DNA of 64,000 bases, taken from contig NZ_CP019285.1 of NCBI RefSeq assembly GCF_000226975.2, positions 620,001 through 684,000 of the forward strand, read 5' to 3'. Below are positions 65 through 51,406 of this stretch, piece by piece. Within the stretch, counting starts at the first letter, position 1, and every line of letters begins with the position of its first letter. Source of the stretch: Halobiforma lacisalsi AJ5. Lineage in GTDB: Archaea; Halobacteriota; Halobacteria; Halobacteriales; Natrialbaceae. The translations under genes and the position numbers were made by a program. A model generated the notes under the pieces. It did no database searches. It worked only from the letters and a program-made list of their open reading frames with translations, and had not been told where the DNA came from.

Positions 65-164
65 CGCCTCCCGGATTTGAACCACGCGAAAGACTCGCTT
101 GCGCTCGTCTTTCGACTTCCCGCTCGCTGCGCTCGCGGGAACGGGGACAGCTCGATCTTCAGTC
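65..164 (-). pseudogene. tRNA-Phe 3' remnant split by a double hairpin
   Basis: Bases 65-83 match 210-228 and bases 142-164 match 228-250 of the intact tRNA-Phe gene about 145 bp away. The two matching pieces are adjacent in the tRNA (T arm and anticodon/variable region). Here they are separated by 58 bases (84-141) holding two hairpins: 87-94 pairs with 107-114, and 117-123 pairs with 135-141. The 5' half of the tRNA is absent, so this is a remnant and not a functional tRNA. The origin is inferred to be a partial duplication followed by insertion. Confidence 0.75.
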
Positions 165-206: not shown

Positions 207-280
207 TGCCGCCTCCCGGATTTGAACCGGGGACAGCTCGATCTTCAGTCGAGTGCTCTCCCAGTCTGAGCTAAGGCGGC
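207..280 (-). tRNA. tRNA-Phe (GAA)
   Basis: Read on the minus strand the sequence folds as a 74-nt cloverleaf. The acceptor stem pairs GCCGCCT with AGGCGGC, followed by discriminator A. The anticodon loop is CTGAAGA, giving anticodon GAA for phenylalanine. The T arm contains GGTTCAAATCC. CCA is not encoded, as is usual in haloarchaea. A partial copy of its 3' half lies at 65-164. Confidence 0.95.
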
Positions 281-1201: not shown

Positions 1202-1317
1202 TGGGCTCGGGCGGGTTCGAACCACCTCAACTTCGCTCGCTGCCGCTCGCTCGTTCCGTCGTTCGAACCCGCCCTCACATACATTTCTGTGGTTCATGCG
1301 TTGTTCACCACAGAAAT
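1202..1317. repeat. Partial tRNA-Val copy plus two hairpins abutting the tRNA 3' end
   Basis: Bases 1202-1226 repeat the last 25 bases of the tRNA-Val gene (1317-1341) in direct orientation, 115 bp away. Within the copy, 1209-1222 forms a perfect 14-bp inverted repeat with 1261-1274. A second perfect 11-bp hairpin pairs 1283-1293 with 1307-1317, and its right arm ends on the tRNA discriminator base. The whole unit looks like an element bounded by tRNA 3'-end copies. It is too short to carry an integrase. Confidence 0.75.
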
Positions 1318-1390
1318 GGGCTCGGGCGGGTTCGAACCACCGACCTCGGCCTTGTAAGGGCCGCGTCATAACCAGCTAGACCACGAGCCC
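1317..1390 (-). tRNA. tRNA-Val (TAC)
   Basis: Minus-strand cloverleaf of 74 nt. The acceptor stem is GGGCTCG/CGAGCCC with discriminator A. The anticodon stem CGGCC/GGCCG closes loop CTTACAA, giving anticodon TAC for valine. The T arm contains GGTTCGAACC. A 25-bp direct copy of its 3' end lies 115 bp downstream of the tRNA 3' end. Confidence 0.95.
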
Positions 1391-50428: not shown

Positions 50429-50462
50429 TGAGCGAACGAAGCGAGCGACGTGCGCCGGTGGT
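50429..50462. repeat. Hairpin and short 5' copy of tRNA-Gly
   Basis: CGCTCGCTT (from 50421) pairs with AAGCGAGCG (to 50447). This is followed by GCGCCGGTGGT at 50452-50462, which repeats the first 11 bases of the tRNA-Gly gene at 50518. It is one of several tRNA-end copies next to hairpins in this window. Confidence 0.6.
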
Positions 50463-50517
50463 GAGACGGACGGCGTCCGTCGAAGTACGGCGCGCAAACG
50501 AACGAAGTGAGTGCAGT

Positions 50518-50588
50518 GCGCCGGTGGTCTAGTGGTAGGACATGAGCTTCCCAAGCTCATAGCCCGGGTTCAATTCCCGGCCGGCGCA
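50518..50588 (+). tRNA. tRNA-Gly (CCC)
   Basis: Plus-strand cloverleaf of 71 nt. The acceptor stem is GCGCCGG/CCGGCGC with discriminator A, and the anticodon stem TGAGC/GCTCA closes loop TTCCCAA, giving anticodon CCC for glycine. The T arm is GGGTTCAATTCCC. Both ends are partly copied nearby: 11 bp of its 5' end at 50452 and 24 bp of its 3' end at 50686. Confidence 0.94.
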
Positions 50589-50709
50589 TTTCCTGCGAAC
50601 GTCAGTGAGCAGTGAAATCACCGGCGGGAATTGAGGGAGACGAGTCCCAGCCCGCACAACGGAGTGAGCAGGGACGTCTCGGCGTGGTTCAATTCCCGGC
50701 CGGCGCATT
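50589..50709 (+). repeat. tRNA-Gly 3'-end copy with inverted copy and hairpin
   Basis: Bases 50686-50709 repeat 50567-50590 exactly (24 bp, offset 119). Between them, 50621-50634 is a near-perfect inverted copy of the same segment, and 50638-50646 with 50671-50680 pairs imperfectly. The arrangement (direct 3' copy, inverted T-arm copy, hairpin) parallels the tRNA-Val repeat at 1202-1317. No coding frame is seen from 50589 to 50929. Confidence 0.7.
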
Positions 50710-50929: not shown

Positions 50930-51002
50930 GCCCGGGTGGTGTAGTGGCCCATCATACAACCCTGTCACGGTCGTGACGCGGGTTCAAATCCCGCCTCGGG
51001 CG
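50930..51002 (+). tRNA. tRNA-Asp (GTC), copy 1
   Basis: Plus-strand cloverleaf of 73 nt. The acceptor stem is GCCCGGG/CTCGGGC (one G-T pair) with discriminator G. The anticodon loop CTGTCAC gives GTC for aspartate. The T arm is GGGTTCAAATCCC. It is nearly identical to copy 2 at 51334, differing by one base in the variable/anticodon-stem region. Confidence 0.94.
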
Positions 51003-51333: not shown

Positions 51334-51406
51334 GCCCGGGTGGTGTAGTGGCCCATCATACAACCCTGTCACGGTTGTGACGCGGGTTCAAATCCCGCCT
51401 CGGGCG
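51334..51406 (+). tRNA. tRNA-Asp (GTC), copy 2
   Basis: Plus-strand cloverleaf of 73 nt, identical to copy 1 at 50930 except for one base (T for C after the anticodon stem), with anticodon GTC. The genes and their upstream boxes are a tandem duplication of about 400 bp. Confidence 0.94.

Follow-up and report, generated by a model that had tools for sequence, protein, structure and literature searches.

Short, gene-free hairpin units behind tRNA genes of Halobacteria

The tRNA-Gly(CCC) gene of Halobiforma lacisalsi AJ5 is followed by a short unit that ends in an exact copy of the tRNA 3' end, and this observation is one case of a pattern spanning the whole class Halobacteria. We interpret the units as site-specific mobile cassettes that are non-autonomous and probably depend on a tyrosine recombinase acting in trans with a crossover in the T-loop. 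We put the probability of this reading at roughly one half, with the enzyme inferred and not shown. The lineage-wide spread of the units, their two conserved hairpins, and the rarity of a variant with a copied 5' end were not visible from the single locus.

The tRNA-Gly(CCC) locus and other units in the window

The window is the 64,000-bp stretch at positions 620,001 to 684,000 of contig NZ_CP019285.1, part of a 4.38-Mb genome (G000) that groups near Natrinema and Halopiger. It contains tRNA-Gly(CCC) at 50518..50588 on the plus strand (ARAGORN; Rfam RF00005, 70.7 bits). An earlier note had described a 24-bp copy of the 3' end 119 bp downstream, and GGTTCAATTCCCGGCCGGCGCATT at 50686-50709 indeed equals 50567-50590 in 24/24 nt at an offset of 119 bp. 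The duplicated end, here called E, is the last 22 nt of the tRNA (50567-50588, plus strand); its exact 22-nt duplicate lies at 50686..50707 (plus), and the match continues to 50709. The space between the two E sequences is filled by hairpin H1 (TTTCCTGCGAACGTCAGTGAGCAGTGAAA; 50589..50617, plus) with a conserved GARC..GYGA head; by E', a degenerate inverted copy of the tRNA 3' end (50618..50634, minus); and by the core of hairpin H2, GGGAGACGAGTCCCAGCC...GGACGTCTCGGCGT (50635..50685, plus), around which E' and E form a stem. H1 was assigned from its sequence, its fold, and covariation over 86 H1 hairpins, E' from a 10-nt exact inverted match and its specificity to its own tRNA, and H2 from covariation and covariance model R1, whose best match in the genome is 670621-670707 (window 50621-50707; E 8.3e-18). 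The inverted copy that had been placed between the gene and the 3' copy is therefore present, as TCACCGGCGGGAATTGA at 50618-50634. Its reverse complement matches the tRNA 3' end imperfectly, over 10 exact nt or about 16 nt when a single gap is allowed, and in the DNA fold the segment forms pairs with the 3' copy (z -4.1).

The copy of the 5' end, which had been given as 11 bp, was also recovered. GTGCGCCGGTGGT at 50450..50462 (plus strand) repeats 50516-50528 over 13 nt, 11 of them inside the gene, at an offset of 66 bp. The insert between this copy and the gene (50463..50515, plus) carries the hairpin ACGGAC-GGC-GTCCGT, an inverted acceptor piece, CGGCGC (50488-50493), and a GAACGAAGTGAG head (50500-50511). 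It repeats the layout of the unit with the tRNA 5' end acting as E, and the same layout was found in G001, G003, G021, and G024. In three genomes, 5'-end copies occurred at Gly-CCC in 3/3 and at Gln-TTG once, compared to a null of 3/3566. The 5'-end copy is not general but a much rarer variant of the same layout. A purely T-loop enzyme does not explain the 5'-side units at Gly-CCC.

A second unit in the window belongs to tRNA-Val(TAC) (1317..1390, minus; ARAGORN), with a 25-nt copy of the 3' end at 1202..1226 (minus) and a 14-nt inverted copy at 1261-1274; the parallel that the earlier note drew with this unit is real. The third unit, at the left end, is atypical. It lies behind tRNA-Phe(GAA) (207..280, minus; ARAGORN) at 65..164 (minus; region 62-164) and consists of an anticodon-arm copy (142-164), two GNA-type hairpins, and a T-loop-to-acceptor copy (65-83). 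At the tRNA-Phe position, a normal unit is present in the sister species (G001). Two near-identical tRNA-Asp(GTC) genes near tRNA-Gly(CCC) (window 50930-51002 and 51334-51406) are an ordinary duplication; units lie behind both copies in G003 and behind neither in G000 and G001.

Structure and distribution of the units

The last 40 nt of each of the 45 tRNAs that the Rfam model found in G000 were compared to the 300 bp behind each gene, with an exact run of at least 16 nt counted as a match. Such a match, typically of 22 nt, was present in the tRNA's own downstream flank for 16/45 tRNAs. Arg-GCG was a 17th unit-bearing tRNA with shorter matches only, and tRNA-Pro(CGG), detected later, adds one more. 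When the same 40 nt were compared to the 300 bp behind other tRNAs, there were no exact 16-nt matches in 1,886 comparisons. This null and shuffles rule out chance or base composition as the source of the copies. Tandem duplication of tRNA genes is also ruled out, since copying is limited to the last 22 nt and the insert does not consist of tRNA flank.

The own-end copies in G000 (about 17/45 tRNAs) lie 67 to 124 bp downstream. The earlier note had proposed that one mechanism was shared, and it predicted an excess of 3'-copy offsets of 110 to 150 bp when every tRNA was considered. Offsets in that range were found for 50 of the 76 units of G000, G001, and G003, which together with the frequency of the copies supports the proposal; the refuting outcome, no excess of end copies elsewhere in the genome, did not occur. 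Only for these three related genomes, all of one genus, were full tRNA sets compared. The insert length of the 76 units had a median of 99.5 bp, an interquartile range of 92 to 115 bp, and extremes of 60 and 162 bp, and no genes were present in inserts of these lengths.

The order of parts in every unit is E, H1, E', H2, E. E comprises the last T-stem base, the T-loop, the 3' T-stem strand, the 3' acceptor strand, and the discriminator base 73, the copy starting at the T-loop boundary and ending at position 73. The second E is usually exact, and the tRNA remains intact. The acceptor part of E' resembles its own tRNA above other tRNAs (mean percentile, 0.66; z 4.3), compared to z -1.9 for a control segment. 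The T-stem part is also specific to its own tRNA but is biased by selection. The contrast between an exact E and a degenerate E' suggests that E was duplicated recently, whereas E' travels with the unit.

In H1, the head GARC-loop-GYGA sits on an arbitrary stem. In H2, E' pairs with the left part of the new E to form the outer stem, and the inner stem, which includes a T.T mismatch, flanks a conserved AGTCGCAG..CCGTCT; a CGARC-GNA-GYGAG head is often present. In single-stranded DNA, C-GNA-G triloops are very stable, as are tandem G.A pairs in a CGAG context. The H2 covariation score over 39 sequences was 0.308, compared to 0.146 after shuffling; none of 500 shuffles reached the observed score, and the signal was lost when the partners were slid. 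The way in which the sequences were picked favors the outer helix. Cleaner evidence comes from the inner helix, which has no tRNA-derived base and showed double changes at each of its four pairs. An independent count gave 231/335 Watson-Crick pairs in H2 (156 when shuffled). For the 86 H1 hairpins, the figure was 289/430 (176 when shuffled).

This covariation, the near-universal occurrence of the units in the class, and a relaxed head motif whose enrichment in the first 150 bp behind tRNAs is confined to the sense strand (5.64 versus 0.37 per kb) would fit structured noncoding RNA genes or trailer elements, made with the tRNA for processing, termination, or regulation and spread by duplication. 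However, a functional sense RNA should give an excess of G-U pairs, and G.T was about as frequent as A.C among the stem exceptions (6 versus 9 in well-formed H1 and 14 versus 10 in H2), which argues against a conserved sense-strand RNA. Whether a given tRNA has a unit is not conserved, and in the Rfam scan only tRNA reached the gathering score, with no other family matching the units. We consider an RNA origin highly doubtful.

In the units of Lys and Thr (L013, L168, L172, L169, and L229) and of Pro-CGG (L242), the E copies have one extra pyrimidine inside the T-loop, in the sequences GTTCAYAATC and GTTCGACATC at different tRNAs. The extra pyrimidine possibly marks the crossover point.

The H2 covariance model had matches in 114/116 Halobacteria genomes. 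In a sample of the phylum, it matched 39/40 haloarchaea and none of the 157 nonhaloarchaeal genomes; per-genome match counts in these wide scans are to be read as "at least." The two negative Halobacteria have a G+C content of about 50%, and a direct search did reveal units in one of them, so that they are uninformative as a route to the missing enzyme. Presence at a single locus is patchy. Beside nadE, tRNA-Gly(CCC) has a unit in Haloferax, Haloprofundus, Halobaculum, Halovenus, Salinibaculum, Halocatena, and others and no unit in most Natrinema, Natrialba, and Natronorubrum.

In G000, nearly all of the 17 H2 matches are directly behind a tRNA on the same strand. The exceptions are one beside a displaced 3' half of tRNA-Gly and one at 900671-900724 between argC and argB (G000:C1; L251). 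At the latter site the H2 core is outside any tRNA and has short inverted flanks (GTGACT/AGTCAT), and nearby palindromes, CATGAAC-TCGCTTCGCTC-GTTCATG, are similar in style.

Turnover and possible origin

Units turn over fast. G000 and G001 are about 95% identical around tRNA-Gly, and the number of units differed at 10/37 tRNAs between them. Leu-CAG is filled in G000 and G001 and empty in G003, and what follows the second E in the filled genomes is the same flank that follows the tRNA in the empty one. Similarly clean differences of one unit, with the flank kept, were seen at Val-GAC, Pro-TGG, Val-TAC, and Arg-CCT. Two or three units in tandem, forming an array, occur at His-GTG in G000, Ser-CGA in G003, and Gly-CCC in G015. 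The first copy in an array agreed with the tRNA in a mean of 21.5/22 positions and later copies in 19.5/22. Sequence is also shared between tRNAs. Val-GAC in G001 and Ser-CGA in G003 have an identical H2 stretch of 48 nt alongside unrelated H1 sequences; Gly-TCC and Arg-CCT have a common 43-nt core with two differences; and whole units are common to tRNAs with the same 3' end (Lys-CTT/TTT and Val-CAC/GAC). The E copies follow the tRNA variants of their own species at Ala-CGC, Thr-TGT, and Ser-TGA in G003; Arg-CCT of the same genome is an exception. Replacement of tRNA 3' ends by imported ends was rejected, since the 3' block of unit-bearing tRNAs showed no substitution excess (0.0080 v 0.0080).

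The sequences show that each insertion leaves the tRNA intact, with its E followed by H1, a degenerate E', H2, and a second E, and that repeated insertion at the tRNA-proximal site gives arrays. In the mechanism that we infer, a tyrosine recombinase would act in trans with a crossover in the 7-bp T-loop. The 7-bp T-loop is nearly identical in all tRNAs, which would make retargeting possible. The hairpin of E', the H2 core, and E may be the folded or inverted-repeat binding site of the recombinase. Counted in favor of recombinase-moved cassettes are the closer match of the first array copies, the H2 stretch identical at different tRNAs, the own-tRNA copies with their limits at the T-loop boundary and position 73, the clean whole-unit indels, the differing unit numbers in closely related species, the covariation of H1 and H2, the class-wide spread, and the occurrence of H2 almost only behind tRNAs. 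The presence of tyrosine recombinases in 116/116 genomes is consistent with the proposal but weak support, because such enzymes are common. Archaeal tyrosine recombinases are reported to attach at the T stem-loop (PMC8371274), and beside the integrase of a Haloquadratum prophage at tRNA-Ala, 22 nt of the tRNA are duplicated (PMC3119063). We regard a T-loop recombinase as most likely, at about even odds, and a duplicating transposase as second. In all likelihood the units are selfish or neutral rather than a requirement for tRNA expression.

Several observations count against the recombinase. No recombinase gene was seen within or adjoining any unit, no integrase was found at unit loci (integron integrases were not taken as a separate family), and the 10 recombinase genes of G000 are all away from units. 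An ordinary integrase does not account for the tRNA specificity of E', and the Gly-CCC 5'-end units use a different region of the tRNA. Most indels cannot be polarized, and part of the turnover could be due to loss through recombination between the 22-nt repeats.

Copies that mirror the tRNA variants of the species fit a duplicating transposase at least as well. The units would then be MITE-like non-autonomous elements, inserted by a transposase specific to the tRNA 3' end that makes a staggered cut and a 22-bp target-site duplication, with E' as an element-borne guide or end. The exact, species-matching E would be newly made and the degenerate E' carried, and there is an analogue in the casposase of A. 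boonei, which reads the T-loop motif TCAAATC and makes a 14- to 15-bp duplication at the tRNA 3' end (PMC6614799). However, the two ends of the insert (H1 and H2) are not inverted repeats of each other, and no autonomous partner is known. Dependence on Cas1 is ruled out: Cas1 is present in 48/116 genomes and missing from several unit-rich ones (G054, G117, and G008 among them), whereas G040 has two Cas1 genes and no unit match, indicating that a Cas1-type enzyme is not required. We regard the transposase as unlikely, though with some weight of its own.

The strictly alternating orientation of E, E', and E raises a different possibility, in which hairpin heads primed copying of the adjacent tRNA end by foldback or template switching, as in rolling-hairpin products, and amplified the alternating series. 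Stems that are arbitrary but complementary around a constant GARC..GYGA head would be expected of such a process, and the same grammar at the Gly-CCC 5' end and, in a short version, at the non-tRNA site between argC and argB would also fit. However, H2 cores are conserved across species and tRNAs and were thus imported, not made locally; E' is far more degenerate than E, so that a single event cannot have made both; and the preference for tRNAs is left unexplained. Local amplification is distinctly improbable.

Neither a full-size element with H2 at its end nor attachment copies of tRNA-Ala beyond the unit were seen, and the unit pattern was absent from 2.9 million viral contigs and from phage records, which also weighs against a recombinase. 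The missing viral pattern also speaks against the idea that the units are what decay has left of ordinary large proviruses or integrative plasmids. In favor of that idea, a displaced tRNA 3' end is what tRNA-targeting integrases usually leave behind, and G000 has an element of about 2.2 kb with such a layout in tRNA-Gly(TCC) (G000:C1:4088984-4091400; loci L285 and L254), with a possible integrase fragment. Its displaced 3' half begins at the anticodon loop, with a copy of the entire hairpin unit behind it, indicating that an ordinary anticodon-loop integration carried the unit along. Independent deletions would not yield the narrow insert lengths, conserved H1 and H2, and arrays that were observed, and an origin as proviral remnants is scarcely credible.

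Comparison with known systems

No description of hairpin units behind haloarchaeal tRNAs was found in the open-access literature. Each of the nearest systems (small mobile repeats, integron cassettes, tRNA-targeting elements, and casposons) fails at least one defining test. SMR-A of Haloquadratum walsbyi is likewise haloarchaeal, about 110 bp long, and gene-free, with inverted repeats, a strong target preference, and an unknown mobilizing enzyme, but it targets IS605-type and PATE palindromes without target duplication, whereas the units target tRNA 3' ends with a 22-nt duplication (PMC3119063). The units resemble MITEs and small mobile repeats in being short (60 to 162 bp) and gene-free, in their clean presence or absence, and in having the same core at different tRNAs. 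In contrast to MITEs, they have no terminal inverted repeats (H1 versus H2) matching a known transposase element, and no parent element was found.

Integron cassette arrays share the tandem cassettes between repeated recombination sites and the younger units near the fixed end. An attC site (R''-L''-loop-L'-R') also resembles the imperfect hairpin with its E'/E outer stem, mismatched inner stem, and conserved core, in layout only. However, the units have no integron integrase or cargo gene, form one short array per tRNA, and use the tRNA T-loop GTTCRA as their site rather than GTTRRRY. Elements with tRNA-targeting tyrosine integrases also have an identity block from a tRNA stem-loop to the 3' end, an intact tRNA, and a T-loop attachment class (PMC8371274), but the units are about 100 bp long, have no integrase, occupy many tRNAs per family, and contain a tRNA-specific inverted copy. 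By analogy, the function of the units would be closest to that of a cargo-free integron cassette or a satellite of tRNA-targeting integrases.

Family 2 casposons share insertion at the tRNA 3' end, recognition of the T-loop, and direct duplication. They differ in being kilobases long, with Cas1 and a polymerase, and in a 14- to 15-nt duplication that excludes the T-loop motif (PMC6614799), and Cas1 is absent from many unit-rich genomes. The units are like CRISPR arrays in their repeat-spacer layout and polar growth at one end, but the repeat is a tRNA end and the spacers are one structured family rather than sampled foreign DNA.

The units belong with gene-free, site-specific mobile repeats, and there is a fair chance that they deserve a category of their own. 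More tentatively, they may be a new category of mobile DNA, consisting of cargo-free hairpin cassettes with a target-complementary E' that form polar arrays on tRNA T-loops across one archaeal class, either integron-like or guide-directed; we consider this possible but do not favor it. If E' guides the choice of tRNA, a target-complementary mechanism would be present in an element of about 100 bp. The units also pose the question of which enzyme recognizes the T-loop common to all tRNAs and inserts DNA without breaking the tRNA. Behind many tRNA genes in nearly all sampled haloarchaea, they are a natural, fast-changing record of site-specific insertion, and they can mislead the annotation of tRNAs, attachment sites, and proviruses.

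Two further observations concern tRNA genes of unusual setting. One plasmid record, a Natrinema thermotolerans megaplasmid (CP031304.1; L298), carries a degenerate gene resembling tRNA-Glu(TTC), whose 5' half is interrupted by an insertion and which is followed by a complete unit; ARAGORN called no tRNA for this gene. In the sister species, about a dozen tRNA genes, several of them low scoring, lie within 4 kb (G001:C17:15318-19504; L212), and this cluster is probably a virus- or plasmid-borne tRNA array.
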